DNA of 40,376 nt from Variovorax sp. (lineage in GTDB: Bacteria; Pseudomonadota; Gammaproteobacteria; Burkholderiales; Burkholderiaceae_C). Position numbers and translations under genes: made by a program. Each line of letters starts with the position of its first letter. The first letter of the stretch is position 1. Location of the stretch: contig JAQGLP010000548.1 in the NCBI GenBank assembly GCA_028292835.1, positions 1 through 40,376 of the forward strand, in the 5' to 3' direction. The notes under the pieces were generated by a model, which was not told the origin of the DNA, ran no database searches, and saw only the letters and a list, made by a program, of their open reading frames with translations. Shown one piece after another: positions 1 through 40,376 of this stretch.

Positions 1-97
1 GTCCCATAGCCGTCCGCCCCCAAGTTTTGACCCGCCCCCCGGCGTCCGCGCAATATTGTTGCGCGACGGCCTCTCGCGCCTTCAGAAATGGCGGATT

Positions 98-292
98 TCA
101 GCCATTTTCGAGGGCGTGCTCGGGATCGTCCACCACCTCGACGCTGGCCTTCACCGGGAGGAGCAGGGCGCCGAGCCGGATCGCCCACATGGCGACGGCG
201 GTGCGGGCCCTGAACCGCTTCTGCCCGGTCACCTTGATGGTGATCGACATCGATGCGGCAACGTCACCCATCCTGATCGGCATCACGGGCAT
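98..292 (-). CDS. small phage protein between HNH gene and packaging junction (internal start MPVMPIRMGDVAASMSITIKV...)
   Basis: ORF 98..358; the ATG at 292 avoids most of the overlap with the HNH ORF; ends ...VEVVDDPEHALENG. Confidence 0.5.
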   Translation of the reverse strand: MPVMPIRMGDVAASMSITIKVTGQKRFRARTAVAMWAIRLGALLLPVKASVEVVDDPEHALENG

Positions 293-615
293 GCTCGCCT
301 CGCTCTCGCACGCTTGCTCTCGCGCGCCGTCTTCACCTTGTGGCAGGGGTCGCAGCACCCTTGATAGTTCTCGCGGTCGTCGGTGCCGCCTTCAGCCTTG
401 GGCACGATGTGGTCGGCGATGCAGCTGGCGGTCACCCGGCCGGCCGCGTCGCAGATCCGGCAGAGCGGCTCCTCGGTCAGCACACGCTCGCGCATCAGGT
501 CATGGGCTCGCCCGTACCCGCGCTCTTGCCGGGAGGCTCGCTTGGTCCAGTTGCTGACCTTGGCCGCGGGCTTGCCCCGGTTCCTCTGCCGCAGGTTAGG
601 TGGGCGGCTGGGCAT
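283..615 (-). CDS. HNH endonuclease (phage packaging-associated type)
   Basis: LCRICDAAGRV...IADHIVPKAEGGTDDRENYQGCCDPCHKVKTARE: CxxC/HxxxP/CxxCH HNH signature; lies upstream of terS when the ends are joined. Confidence 0.9.
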   Translation of the reverse strand: MPSRPPNLRQRNRGKPAAKVSNWTKRASRQERGYGRAHDLMRERVLTEEPLCRICDAAGRVTASCIADHIVPKAEGGTDDRENYQGCCDPCHKVKTARESKRARARRACP

Positions 616-757
616 TAGTGACTACCCTCCGTGGGCAGTGATTGGCGAGGCCTCGGATAACTGGACGCCTTCGGACTGCCGCCGCGGCACGGCCGCTCCG
701 GTGAGATTGGGCAGTGCATGAGCGCGAAGCTCAAGATCATCTAGGCCCGACAGCTGC

Positions 758-1426
758 TCAAGCAGCGGTGCCCTGTAGGGCTGCGCCCTCCCTTAGCGTA
801 ACCGGAAGCAAACGCCAAGCGTCTACTGTCATCGTCAGGGAACCGCCGAAGTCGATCAGTGCCGAGGTGCCGTTCCCCTGTATTACGCGCCCGATGACGC
901 CGGACAGGGCGGGCATGTCATTGACGACCACCGCATCGCCCGAAACCAGCGGCTTACTAACCTTGCGGAGCGCCTTCTGGCGGGCTCGATCCGTGCGCAG
1001 CATCTCGGCGCGGTCCTGCTGCGCCTTCGCGCGCGTCTCGGCGTCGCACAGCGCCTGGTGCTGAGCAGCGTAATCCTCCTCCGCAGCACGCAACCCGGTC
1101 ACGCTGGCATCGCTCACCACCGGCACAGATCCTCCGAACTGGAAGATGGTGAACTCGTTCTGCGGCACGCTCGCCAGCCGCGCGATGTCCGCCAGCCGAT
1201 CGGCCGATGCGAACACGAAGCTGGGCAACACCGCGACGCGGACATCGATCAGCACGCGACGCTGGCCCATGACCAGCCGGCGGCGCTGCCCCGGTGCAGG
1301 TCGGCGTATGACGCGGGCAGGGGACCACGCTTCGATCCCCGCATCGTTCAGGAATAGCGCAAGCGGGAGCGTGCGGCGCCCGCTTGTGCGCAGGATGCAC
1401 CAGCCGGTGCGGGCCCCGTCGATCAT
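758..1426 (-). CDS. NusG/RfaH-like protein (NGN-like N-terminus plus C-terminal KOW), putative phage antiterminator
   Basis: GWCILRTSGRRTLPLALFLNDAGIEAWSPARVIRRP...VLPSFVFASA pattern, then charged linker, then SGDAVVVNDMPALSGVIGRVIQGNGTSALIDFGGSLTMTVDAWRLLPV (KOW-like). Confidence 0.7.
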   Translation of the reverse strand: MIDGARTGWCILRTSGRRTLPLALFLNDAGIEAWSPARVIRRPAPGQRRRLVMGQRRVLIDVRVAVLPSFVFASADRLADIARLASVPQNEFTIFQFGGSVPVVSDASVTGLRAAEEDYAAQHQALCDAETRAKAQQDRAEMLRTDRARQKALRKVSKPLVSGDAVVVNDMPALSGVIGRVIQGNGTSALIDFGGSLTMTVDAWRLLPVTLREGAALQGTAA

Positions 1427-36262: not shown

Positions 36263-36913
36263 TCAGCCGCGCATCCGTTCGAGGAAGCGCAGCGCGTCGT
36301 CGGCCTTGACCTCGGGCTCCCCCCGAAGATGCGGCTTGCCCGCCGACGCCAGTGCGGCGGCGAGCGATTTCGAGAAGCCTGCATCCCGCAGGATCTCCTC
36401 AAATTCTCGAATGGTCGGCAGCATGCCGCTCTCAAGCGCGGCTTTCACGGCGGTGATGCGGGCCTCGATGTTCATCGGCATCGTGACGAGGCTGACCTCG
36501 CGCAGGTCGACCGTCTTGAGCTGCGCGACGTCGCGACGCTTCGGATCGGGACCAGCGCCCCCGACCGGGATGCGGTAGCCGATCGACATGCCGCCGATCG
36601 CGCCCTCCTGGATGAGGCCGTAGGTACGCTTGGCGAGCGGGTCGGTGTCGATGAGGAGCTTGCCGCGGACGAACAAGCCCTGCTTGTCTTCCTTGATCTC
36701 GCGCCAGACGCCGATGGGCTCATGCTGGTCGTGCTGCCACAGCATCGGAATGATGCGGTTCGCGGCCTTCGATGCCTTGATGCTTTCGAGGAAGGCGCCG
36801 CGCATGACGACGTCGCCACCCTGATCGACATTTCCGAAGGTCGACGCATAGCCTTCGAACTCGCCGGGCTCGGCAAGCGCCTTCGTTTCCATCGAGAGGT
36901 CAAAATACTTCAT
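36263..36913 (-). CDS. HK97-family prohead protease
   Basis: FEGYASTFGNVDQGGDVVMRGAFLESIK...MLWQHDQHEPIGVWREIKEDKQGLFVRGKLLIDTDPLAKRTYGLIQEGAIGGMSIGY. Confidence 0.95.
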   Translation of the reverse strand: MKYFDLSMETKALAEPGEFEGYASTFGNVDQGGDVVMRGAFLESIKASKAANRIIPMLWQHDQHEPIGVWREIKEDKQGLFVRGKLLIDTDPLAKRTYGLIQEGAIGGMSIGYRIPVGGAGPDPKRRDVAQLKTVDLREVSLVTMPMNIEARITAVKAALESGMLPTIREFEEILRDAGFSKSLAAALASAGKPHLRGEPEVKADDALRFLERMRG

Positions 36914-38151
36914 GCGGCTTCCTTCAGCGGCGGTCCGCCGTTGTGACCGAGCCCCGGCTGCGCGGTGATCGGCTGGTTCTGCATCTGCATGCGGGGGACA
37001 TCTCCCCCCTCCACGGGCGGCAGGTTTTCCAGCGCGCGGACCTCGTTGATCGTCATCCAGCCATTCTGGAGAGCGGCGTTGTAGAAGGCGGAGCGCGCCT
37101 TGCTGTCGCCGCGTAGCAGGCCTTCAAGGTTGAACTCGATCGTGATGCCGGCGGCGATGTCCGCGGGCGTCAGCAACTGCTTGCGGAGCGCCTGCTCGAT
37201 GCGCTTGAGGCGGCGGCGGAGGCTGAACTTCACGAAGCCGAGCGTCTGTTGCTCCAACCCGGTGCCCCAGCTGGTCGACTTCTCCGTGTGCCCAATCATG
37301 AAGGGTGGGACGATGAACAGTCGGCACAACTCTTCGAGGGAGAACTTGCGGCTCTCCAGCATCTGCATGTCGTCGGGCGACATGGTGAGCTGCTGCCATT
37401 TTAGGTCGAACCCGAGGACCAGCGGGCGCCCGGAGTTTTCGGCCCCTTGATGACGCTTGGCGAGATGCTCCTCGATTTCCCCGCGCTGCTCCGGGGTCAT
37501 CTTCGTGGCGGTCTGGTAGACGCCGCTCGGCCGCACCGCGTTGCGGAAGACCGTCCCGGCGGTGCGGTTGAGCGCCTGGCTAAGGCCGAACGCTTCTGCG
37601 CCGAACTGCAGCGTGGACATGCCGCCGAGCGGATCGCCGCCGAAGCCGCGGATGTGTAGCACGTTCTCGCTGGCCTCGCGGCGCGACACGCCGTTCCATG
37701 TCCAGCGATATTCAATTTCGCCGTTGCTGAGACGGCTGCGGGCAACGATCGCCGGCGGGATGGGATCGAGGCCGATCACCTGACCGCTCACGCCGCGCAG
37801 CTTCTCAGCATAGGCATTGCCGCGCAGTTCGAGCGCGACGGACATATATTCCCAGAAGTCGACAGCGGTCTGATCCGCGTTCGGATCATCGTGCAGGATA
37901 CGATAGAGCCAGTGGTCGGTCGCGAGAACGCGTCCGCCTGGCGTCGATCGATAGACCATCAGCGGCAGCGTTGAGATCGCGCCGCCGATCAAATTGAGGC
38001 ACGCCCACGCCGCCGTGAGATTCATGACGCTGTAGTCGTTGACGCTCTCGGCTGCCGCGTTGCCGTAGCCCGCCGAGCCTTCGACGCTGGTCCGCGTGCC
38101 CAGCCGGATTATTCCCGAGAGCCGGTCGACTACACCGCTGAACCAACTCAC
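36910..38151 (-). CDS. HK97-family portal protein
   Basis: NLTAAWACLNLIGGAISTLPLMVYRS...FRNAVRPSGVYQT...FSLEELCRLFIVPPFMIGHTEKSTSWGTGLEQQTLGFVKFSLRRRLKRIEQAL. Confidence 0.95.
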   Translation of the reverse strand: MSWFSGVVDRLSGIIRLGTRTSVEGSAGYGNAAAESVNDYSVMNLTAAWACLNLIGGAISTLPLMVYRSTPGGRVLATDHWLYRILHDDPNADQTAVDFWEYMSVALELRGNAYAEKLRGVSGQVIGLDPIPPAIVARSRLSNGEIEYRWTWNGVSRREASENVLHIRGFGGDPLGGMSTLQFGAEAFGLSQALNRTAGTVFRNAVRPSGVYQTATKMTPEQRGEIEEHLAKRHQGAENSGRPLVLGFDLKWQQLTMSPDDMQMLESRKFSLEELCRLFIVPPFMIGHTEKSTSWGTGLEQQTLGFVKFSLRRRLKRIEQALRKQLLTPADIAAGITIEFNLEGLLRGDSKARSAFYNAALQNGWMTINEVRALENLPPVEGGDVPRMQMQNQPITAQPGLGHNGGPPLKEAA

Positions 38152-39959
38152 GCGGCGAGGCTCCGGATGAGAGCCGAGGCTTCATCCTCCTCGGTTGGCA
38201 GCATCATCGGCGCAATCGCGTGAACCGTTGAATCGACGCCGTCGATCTTGTTCATCGACATTGGCGTCTCCTTCTTCGGCAGGATGGTGCTGTCCGTCTG
38301 CCTGCGGGTGACGACCGTGTTGCCGACGCACCAGGTCATCACGGGATTGTCGTCATGCCGCAGCAGATGCGGACCACCGATGACGCGGGCTTCGAGATTT
38401 TTGGCCGGGTCAGTCACGTTCTTGGCATTCTTCGGCAGGATCGCCGCGAAGCCGTCGCCGTCGTCGAGATCGGCGTTTAGTCGGACCGCCATCTCCTCGG
38501 CCGCCGCGAAGTGGTCGAAGGTGACCTTGCGCACGCGCAGGACCTTGGCGAGACGCCGGATGTGGCGCTCAACGCGGGATTGATCGACCCAGTCGCCTGG
38601 CGTCAGGATCAGCTTTCCCGCCTTTTGCCATTGGCGATACAGCGTGACATTATTCCGGTCCGACTGACCGTCCCGCTTCAGTACCGCCTCGGGAAGGAAG
38701 AACCACGTCTTCACCAGCAGCTGATCGTCGGGCGTCAGCGCCGCCAGCGTGAGCGCGGTGAGATCGCTCTTATGCGCAAGATCGGCGCCGATGTAGCAGT
38801 CGAGCCCCGCGAAGTCCCGTAGCCTCAATGTCTTATCGCCGCAGGCAATCCACTTAGGCACGCTGAGCCAGGCCGACGCGGCGGACATCCACCGGTTCAG
38901 ACGCTTCGTGAAGAACTCGCCTTCCTCGCCCGGTGCGCCCTTCGCCTTGACGGCCAGCCGGCGCATGGACTCGATGCTCGGCGTCACCGGCATCAGCGGG
39001 TTGGCCTTGGGCCAGTTCTTCTCGTCGTACGGGTCGTCGCCGAGCGTGCGCTCGGGCGTGAAATCCTTAGGGCCGTCGAGCGTGAAGATGATGCCGAAGA
39101 CGTGATCGGCGACGATGGCGCCCTCTAGAACCTTCGTCGAGAAGGTCCGCTGCTCGTAACAAACGCCGTCGAGGATGTAGCCGGCGGTGGTGATCTTCCA
39201 GTAGAGCGGGTTGCGTCGAGCACCGTCCGCCGAATGAATAACGTCGTAGAGGCCCCGGTCCTTGTGGGCGTGCAGCTCATCGAGGACGGCCAGGTGAGGA
39301 TTGTGCCCGTCCTGCGTCGCCGACTTCGAGTTGATCGTCTGAATCGTGCCGCCGTTGAGGTCGCAGGTGATCGCCCGCGCCCACGCCGTGAGGCCGAACG
39401 CCTCCTGCAGGTCCGGCGTCTTCTGCACCATGAGCTTCGCCGGGTTGAAAACCTTCTGCGCCTGGGCACCGGTCGTGGCGCCGATCAGCACCAGCGGCCC
39501 CGGCTCGTCTTCGCAGGTGGTGCAGTACAGCACCACGCCGGCAGTCAGCGTCGACTTAGCGCCCTTCCTTGCCATCTCGATGTAGGTGTCGGTGAACCGG
39601 CGGAGCCCTGTCGCCTTGTCTCGCCAGCCGAACACCATCGCGAGGATGAATATCTGCGCGGGCTCAAGGCGGAGGTTCGGAGTTTCCCACTTGCCTTCGA
39701 CGTGCGGCAGCTTCTCGATGAAGTCACAGATGTCATTGGCGTGCCAGGTATCGAACCGGAATGGCCAGTCCTTCCCCTTTGAACGCTTCAGATCGTCGAG
39801 GTGACGCTGCGCTGCCAGCCGTACCCACTTGCAGTGCTCGACCTGATCCTTATCCGCCGCAGCGCGCTTGGCATACGCCAGCGCGACAGCGGCATAGTCA
39901 CGCGCGTGCTCGGGCGCCGTTGCGGGCGAAGCGGTTTGCCGGCTTTGCGCCATCGCCAC
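38148..39959 (-). CDS. terL: terminase large subunit
   Basis: FILAMVFGWRDKATGLRRFTDTYIEMARKGAKSTLTAGVVLYCTTCEDEPGPLVLIGATTGAQAQKVF; LAVLDELHAHKDRGLYDVI; CYIGADLAHKSDLTAL. Confidence 0.95.
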   Translation of the reverse strand: MAMAQSRQTASPATAPEHARDYAAVALAYAKRAAADKDQVEHCKWVRLAAQRHLDDLKRSKGKDWPFRFDTWHANDICDFIEKLPHVEGKWETPNLRLEPAQIFILAMVFGWRDKATGLRRFTDTYIEMARKGAKSTLTAGVVLYCTTCEDEPGPLVLIGATTGAQAQKVFNPAKLMVQKTPDLQEAFGLTAWARAITCDLNGGTIQTINSKSATQDGHNPHLAVLDELHAHKDRGLYDVIHSADGARRNPLYWKITTAGYILDGVCYEQRTFSTKVLEGAIVADHVFGIIFTLDGPKDFTPERTLGDDPYDEKNWPKANPLMPVTPSIESMRRLAVKAKGAPGEEGEFFTKRLNRWMSAASAWLSVPKWIACGDKTLRLRDFAGLDCYIGADLAHKSDLTALTLAALTPDDQLLVKTWFFLPEAVLKRDGQSDRNNVTLYRQWQKAGKLILTPGDWVDQSRVERHIRRLAKVLRVRKVTFDHFAAAEEMAVRLNADLDDGDGFAAILPKNAKNVTDPAKNLEARVIGGPHLLRHDDNPVMTWCVGNTVVTRRQTDSTILPKKETPMSMNKIDGVDSTVHAIAPMMLPTEEDEASALIRSLAA

Positions 39960-40314
39960 CTCCGCCTACTCGGCTCTTCGGCCCGGCAATGCGGAGCAAC
40001 TCCTCATGCTGGCGCAACACGGTCAGGTATGCGGCGGACGGCAGTTCATCGCCCGACTTGAACGCGACCCGCACCTCAGCTTCGAGAGAGCAGTATCGCG
40101 CGAGCAGCGCGCTATCGACCTCGGACACGCCGGCCGCCATCACCCGTGCCAGAACCTCCTGCCAGACGTCGATCGCACCGGCCGTCAGATAGTCGGGCCG
40201 CACAGGCGGGTCGCCCGGGACGATGATCTCGGTTTTCACGCCGTCTCGGATCGGCTGGAATGTGCCCCGCGCCAGCTTCGTGCTGGGCGGCTCGGCCTTC
40301 GGTCCCCGCTTCAT
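39898..40314 (-). CDS. terS: P27-family terminase small subunit
   Basis: MKRGPKAEPPSTKLARGTFQPIRDG...VPGDPPVRPDYLTAGAIDVWQEVLARVMAAGVSEVDSALLARYCSLEAE. Confidence 0.9.
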   Translation of the reverse strand: MKRGPKAEPPSTKLARGTFQPIRDGVKTEIIVPGDPPVRPDYLTAGAIDVWQEVLARVMAAGVSEVDSALLARYCSLEAEVRVAFKSGDELPSAAYLTVLRQHEELLRIAGPKSRVGGGGDGAKPANRFARNGARARA

Positions 40315-40376
40315 GGCCGGGCCTCCTGAAATCTTATTGGCACGGCGAGTTTAATCTGCACGCGCGATTAAAAGGC

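Follow-up and report, generated by a model that had tools for sequence, protein, structure and literature searches.

The temperate phage in the window, i.e. the whole stretch of 40,376 nucleotides analyzed here, probably possesses a late switch comparable to that of Q. In this switch, a NusG paralog would be recruited via its own leader RNA and would enable read-through of the late operon by RNA polymerase. The family and the fold of the protein, its conserved position, the existence and covariation of the RNA, the linkage of this RNA to the NusG gene, and a promoter-like signature exceeding the codon background were demonstrated computationally. RNA binding, recruitment, antitermination, and the timing of these events are what we infer.

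A NusG-family Protein by Profile and Predicted Fold

The open reading frame (758-1426, minus strand) starts with an ATG at 1426, ends with a TGA at 760-758, and encodes 222 amino acids. Its start overlaps the preceding early open reading frame by 4 bp (ATGA), and an AAGGGGG ribosome site is located 5' of it. The original prediction had described a NusG-like protein with an NGN domain, a long charged linker, and a KOW domain, and all sequence strings quoted in its support were found in the translation. The NGN domain (GWCILRTSGRRTL...VLPSFVFAS...; approximate bounds 1120-1411, minus strand) was recognized from invariant columns and from the AlphaFold (AF2) model; columns W, C, I, T, P, and F were invariant among 33 relatives. 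The charged linker of 47 residues (EEDYAAQ...TDRARQKALRKVSKPLVS; approximate bounds 944-1084, minus strand) was predicted by AF2 to be helical and is typical of the A1 class of leader RNA described below. A segment of the NGN domain, RRPAPGQRRRLVMGQRR (window 1252-1303, minus strand), is a candidate for contact with nucleic acid; in some members of the family, it is strongly basic.

As a single query, the 222-residue protein matched neither NusG or KOW in Pfam nor any entry in the PDB. PHROG 6386, annotated as "transcription antiterminator," matched residues 6-127 with an E value of 3.6e-9. When searched against 369 cellular genomes, this profile found a match in 332, mostly with best E values of about 1e-30 to 1e-40; matches of this strength are what host NusG should give. 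PHROG 6386 thus behaves like a NusG profile. The UpxY model NF033644 also matched the window protein (E = 7e-5, 22.8 bits), below its cutoff of 100 bits. For a family profile, relatives were gathered from viral contigs and genomes, and 33 of them were aligned. The UpxY model matched 29 of these 33 proteins, the RfaH and Pfam NusG models 11 each, and the LoaP model NF033641 one (E = 9e-7), the window protein not being matched by the latter. The family profile itself matched chains of Spt5, NusG, and RfaH in the PDB, with an E value of 1.3e-9 for the Spt5 KOW.

The AF2 model (pLDDT 90.4) consisted of an NGN domain, a continuous helix of 49 residues, and a β-barrel KOW domain. The helix (residues 102-150 in the numbering of the trimmed protein) includes the linker, and the KOW strands span residues 161-204. 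Foldseek searches with this model matched RfaH and NusG structures; RfaH bound to RNA polymerase was the top match (8phk, E = 3.6e-5), and 8pen reached a TM score of 0.72 by target length. The KOW domain was predicted as β rather than in the α-helical form of RfaH, a prediction by AF2 that is not decisive on fold switching. Taken together, the family profile, the AF2 fold, and the match to polymerase-bound RfaH make membership of the 1426-758 product in the NusG family secure at the level of profile and structural modeling. The predicted paralogy was therefore borne out by PHROG 6386, by profile similarity at the level of UpxY, RfaH, and Spt5, by the AF2 fold, and by the Foldseek match to RfaH: the profile and AlphaFold comparison recovered NGN as well as KOW, and the nearest structure was that of polymerase-bound RfaH. 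Membership in RfaH, UpxY, or LoaP proper was not secured, the UpxY score being below cutoff and the LoaP model unmatched in the window.

Position before the Late Genes and Exchange of the Terminase

In total, 85 such genes were collected, 78 of them distinct by DNA and most of them from viral contigs and prophages of Sphingomonadales. Queries against 50,697 GenBank phages found no such gene, and single-sequence searches of phage and plasmid collections gave nothing useful. In the window, an integrase, a DnaG-like primase, a helicase, terminases, a portal protein, a protease, a capsid protein, and a tape measure protein were recognized, as in a temperate phage, and the late genes are on the minus strand. 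The first gene after the RNA element encodes an HNH endonuclease (283-615, minus strand; Pfam HNH, E = 1.4e-9). At the other contig end, the late block begins with the small terminase subunit (39898-40314, minus strand; PHROG 83, E = 5.4e-9), continues with the large subunit (38148-39959, minus strand; PHROG 9, E = 5.4e-149) and the portal protein (36910-38151, minus strand), and then runs into head and tail genes on the same strand.

The contig has no terminal overlap, and HNH and terS are situated at its opposite ends. In one relative, L069, NusG, HNH, terS, and terL form an unbroken series, and both ends of the window map into the HNH-terS gap of this relative. The gene had originally been called the last one before an HNH-terS block; this order is retained if the window is one molecule cut at that point, as the arrangement in L069 suggests, and is not seen as such on the contig itself. 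The contig ends (window 1-45 and 40314-40376) adjoin a shared stretch, GGCGGGTCAAAACTTGG, and possibly represent natural cos ends. In and around 1850-2035, a stretch upstream of the NusG-like gene, several copies of GGGCGACAGT are present, possibly an array of binding sites or a replication origin.

The position of the gene is conserved. In 69 of the 78 non-redundant loci, the gene for the large terminase lies 0.76-3.7 kb downstream of the NusG gene on the same strand, and replication genes are often found upstream. Three types of large terminase (TerL) occurred in the loci, 27, 26, and 16 times, respectively; the closest two are 24% identical along a part of the sequence, and the third has no significant similarity to either. 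The Q-like position before the late block, as originally proposed, is thus kept across three terminase types, and the accompanying statement that a Q- or N-like protein is missing agrees with our scan of early open reading frames in the window, among which none was seen. On the NusG tree, the TerL type changes 28 times compared with a shuffled mean of 33. Because this is close to random, we deduced that the late module has been swapped beneath a constant NusG gene.

A Promoter-like Sequence in the 3' End of the Gene

A promoter-like sequence was identified by comparison of the loci in the 3' end of the gene (790-818, minus strand). It consists of a -35 element, TTGGCG (818-813), a 17-nt spacer, and a -10 element, TAAGGG (795-790). 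In class A loci, the sequence is situated inside the gene as CTTGGC or CTTTCC followed, mostly after 17 nt, by TA. The TA of the -10 element falls on GTA, CTA, ATA, or TTA codons in 51 of 56 loci, a count slightly biased by the fact that the -35 offsets were set by a search in which TA was scored. GTA accounts for 68 of the 966 valine codons elsewhere in these genes. The TA is kept while the encoded amino acid varies, implying that the DNA and not the amino acid is conserved. The promoter score exceeded that of an in-gene control in 64 of 66 loci. In class B, a -35 element, CTTGAC, overlaps the stop codon, and a hairpin with a 5-bp stem and a pentaloop (GCUGC-CAGGA-GCAGC) follows 9-14 nt after the -10 element. 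The -10 element of the window is poor, and a standard consensus scan of the window found no promoter, so that the start site near 783 (minus strand) is a prediction.

An intrinsic terminator was not found in the leader of the window. Such terminators were detected within 900 nt in 10 of 78 loci and in 7 of the upstream controls. As this does not exceed the control, termination in this region would be Rho-dependent or would occur further downstream.

A Conserved Multi-hairpin Leader RNA

As judged from sequence comparison, the folded multi-hairpin RNA predicted at the 3' end of the NusG gene is previously undescribed. In Rfam, no family reached the gathering threshold for the leader RNA, and the matches otherwise obtained were at chance level. 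Near the predicted 5' end of the RNA, hairpin H0 (GCCC-UACA-GGGC; 770-781, minus strand), derived from the sequence and the fold centroid, occupies a 12-nt interval between the promoter and H1, and some relatives are devoid of this interval. Hairpin H1 (GCUGC-UUGA-GCAGC; 753-766, minus strand) overlaps the last two alanine codons and the stop codon, and its central pair covaries across the loci as T-A, C-G, or G-C. The underlying inverted repeat across the stop codon reads GCTGC-TTGA-GCAGC in the window and GCCGC-NNNN-GCGGC or GCGGC-NNNN-GCCGC in others. More hairpins are found within about 110 nt. H2 (709-748, minus strand), supported by models R3 and R2 and by covariation, has an outer stem GGGC...GCCC, an inner stem-loop UGAGC-UUCGC-GCUCA, and a conserved internal loop, GAUGAUCU. 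The R2 match also covers H3, CCG-GA-GCGGC...GCCGC-GG-CGG (701-679), which is followed by a small H4, GUCC-GAA-GGC (about 676-667), outside the RNA model; the two together occupy 667-701 on the minus strand.

In an unbiased test anchored at the stop codon, the central pair was Watson-Crick in 42 of the 63 members ending in GCN GCN (C-G in 20, T-A in 18, G-C in 4), and the full 5-bp complement across the stop was present in 31 of them. In five loci in which the stop codon has moved upstream (L049, L075, L082, L085, and L100), the hairpin remains in the DNA. A C-terminal Ala-Ala as the sole cause of the conserved end was rejected, because the inverted repeat extends beyond the stop codon and is still present where the stop has shifted. 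The family proteins do end in Ala-Ala in 31 of 44 cases even without a full stop-codon hairpin and in 16 of 16 class B cases, compared with 33 of 251 neighbor proteins. This terminal Ala-Ala (window 758-766) is similar to a ClpXP degron of the ssrA type, and the regulator could be short-lived as a result.

Model R2 was trained on eight loci of one class and searched against both strands of the 78 loci (1.18 Mb). All 45 matches at E ≤ 0.01 were on the nusG strand. Among the held-out matches, 34 of 37 were located at the nusG stop, two were 605 (locus L038) and 813 nt downstream, and one was just inside a read-through frame. The window, which was outside the training set, matched R2 at 660-769 with an E value of 2.2e-4, and model R3 agreed with R2 for the RNA class of the window. 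Two-sided changes were seen for 21 of 22 modeled pairs in the alignment from R2, and the covariation score was 0.430 compared with 0.138 after shuffling (reached in 0 of 500 shuffles) and 0.04-0.08 when the structure was slid, figures that come from RNA alignments fitted to the model structure. The leader of the window folded no better than its shuffles (z = +1.0); as it is not unusually stable, its structure is derived from comparison alone. In 401 genomes of the Sphingobium order, two strong R2 matches and one weak match adjoined a NusG-like gene. Three weak matches (G567, G639, and G788) had no NusG-like gene within about 8 kb and were judged to be due to chance.

Hairpins with a pentaloop, GCNGC-CAGGA-GCNGC, similar in size to lambda boxB, were noted in ten loci (L069, L070, L102, L103, L122, L123, L125, L127, L129, and L130). 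The region 616-757, which had originally been singled out for termination assays, contains most of the conserved structured RNA. Linker length is tied to RNA class, a finding that, like the promoter-like sequence in the 3' end of the gene and the hairpin at the stop codon, goes beyond what had been predicted.

Inheritance of the RNA with the NusG Gene

The linker measures 47 or 58 residues in 25 of 25 A1-class loci including the window, mostly 15-31 residues (40 in one case) in class A2, and 15-18 residues in class B. On the NusG tree, 3 changes of RNA class are seen, as opposed to 31 after shuffling. Comparison with the 28 changes of TerL indicated that the RNA belongs to the NusG gene and not to the packaging genes; the mutual information between RNA class and TerL type was 0.104 (p = 0.08). 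A link of the long linker to the A1 RNA is suggestive on these sequence grounds. Repeated co-evolution of linker and RNA was unsupported, as the tree contains a single transition. Two members of the long-linker clade, L093 and L109, have kept an H2-like hairpin, and H1 is seemingly absent from them.

These patterns bear on what the RNA does. The leader RNA itself might be the antiterminator, acting on RNA polymerase like put of phage HK022, and the NusG paralog might be an accessory processivity factor for which binding to this RNA is not required. Such an arrangement would agree with the strong covariation and with the placement of several hairpins at the 5' end predicted for the transcript or close to it, just as putL is found just downstream of PL (PMC9378689). 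We nevertheless consider it unlikely, since put needs no phage protein, yet the RNA studied here stays with the NusG gene through the exchange of late genes, its class matches the linker class, and the strong matches of the RNA model in the 401 genomes were found only beside a NusG gene.

The overlap of H1 with the stop codon in class A invokes the idea of autoregulation, in which the hairpins at the 3' end would be a binding site or a 3' stabilizer for the protein's own mRNA and would play no role in late read-through. This is quite improbable, given that the hairpin persists outside the gene in the five loci with an upstream stop codon, that the RNA match of L038 lies 605 nt past the stop, and that in class B the promoter-like sequence is placed between the gene and the hairpin.

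The protein could also bind RNA polymerase, displace host NusG, and block Rho in the absence of a specific recruitment site, as its RfaH-like NGN/KOW fold and the role of RfaH as a NusG paralog countering NusG in E. coli (PMC6391919) might suggest. This general takeover has very little probability in our view, as it leaves the fixed position before the late genes and the co-inherited RNA unexplained. Outright replacement of host NusG, an option in the original prediction, found no support: the Sphingobium host of a related prophage retains a separate NusG, and most genomes of the class carry their own according to the PHROG 6386 profile search. Least credible of all, a cos/pac site of the terminase or some other DNA signal used in packaging would fit an element just upstream of terS with inverted repeats, which are common in cos regions, but was rejected because the element is independent of terminase type (28 TerL changes and 3 element changes; mutual information 0.104, p = 0.08), the stems keep pairing across loops of differing length as in RNA, and the likelier cos is at the contig ends of the window, after HNH.

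The Proposed Late Switch and Its Closest Known Counterparts

Antitermination by a NusG paralog reading its own leader RNA could proceed as follows. The early operon would yield the NusG-like protein, and the late transcript would start from a promoter lying either within the 3' end of its gene or at that end. The first 100-130 nt of this transcript are predicted to fold as the hairpin chain H0/H1/H2/H3, one hairpin overlapping the stop codon. The protein would read the leader RNA as it emerges from RNA polymerase, probably at H1, and the linker helix may help in the subclass of the window. The NGN domain would dock on the clamp helices of the polymerase, and the protein would remain on the enzyme, which would then ignore pauses and terminators through the HNH-terS-terL-head-tail operon.

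By analogy, recruitment through the leader RNA, in the way LoaP is recruited through dfn, appears to be the best explanation. LoaP of Bacillus velezensis binds a leader hairpin required for antitermination; according to a description from 2025, no other NusG-like protein of bacteria is known to bind specifically to an RNA element (PMC12691694). In both systems, a specialized NusG paralog is accompanied by an RNA hairpin within the leader of the operon that it targets or, in our case, is predicted to target, RNA binding being deduced here. LoaP acts on antibiotic operons of Gram-positive bacteria and dfn is one hairpin of the UNCG type, whereas the protein described here is encoded by phages in an alphaproteobacterial setting, precedes a late virion operon, and is accompanied by several hairpins. 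The loops of H1 are UUGA, CUGA, AUGA, or CAGGA and not UNCG; UUCG was seen only in certain A1 members, in the loop of H2.

RfaH of Escherichia coli, recruited at ops, is likewise a NusG paralog, and its polymerase-bound form gave the best structural matches. In contrast, the present gene is phage-borne, and its KOW is predicted as β as opposed to the α-helical fold of RfaH. The ops core was found in 0 of 78 leaders, the window being at chance level, and recruitment by ops was rejected on account of this absence. The UpxY antiterminators of Bacteroides capsule operons are the closest NCBIfam model (29 of 33 members), but the window score of 22.8 bits is below the cutoff of 100, and hosts and targets differ. 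The gene for lambda Q immediately precedes the late leader and the late genes; Q itself is unlike NusG, its loading taking place at a DNA element and a sigma-dependent pause. The likeness to Q and pR' is therefore one of position only, with a NusG paralog and an RNA here in place of Q at a DNA element.

The put element of HK022, located near a promoter in a temperate phage, is a structured RNA that mediates antitermination. It is part of early operons and independent of phage proteins (PMC9378689). The leader RNA resembles it as a structured RNA of a temperate phage near a promoter-like sequence and differs in operon, in the accompanying phage protein, and in its hairpins, for which Rfam gave no match. 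GafZ of the Caulobacter gene transfer agent is reported to act with host NusA, NusG, and NusE, and the element to which it may bind is situated between -35 and -10 (PMC11150451). GafZ is similar in being an alphaproteobacterial antiterminator of a virion gene cluster and different in that the abstract on it does not present it as a NusG paralog (PMC11150451).

The existence of NusG-like proteins in phages is not in itself novel, since PHROGs already labels one phage family as an antiterminator. In the open-access literature, no phage-encoded NusG paralog was found described as a late regulator, an absence that is not proof. On balance, we lean toward a class of alphaproteobacterial temperate phages whose late genes are run by a NusG paralog that reads a multi-hairpin leader RNA partly encoded across its own stop codon, and in one clade of which a helical linker of 47 or 58 residues arose with a new RNA shape.

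If this is true, the phages harbor a second RNA-reading lineage of NusG, and theirs would be the first late switch of a phage to be built from NusG. With dozens of protein-RNA pairs that vary naturally, one could test directly how NusG paralogs gain specificity. A late-gene regulator would be supplied for phages without a recognized Q- or N-like protein, and a compact tool for terminator read-through in alphaproteobacteria would become available. The phage lineage could show how a universal elongation factor turns into a dedicated switch.
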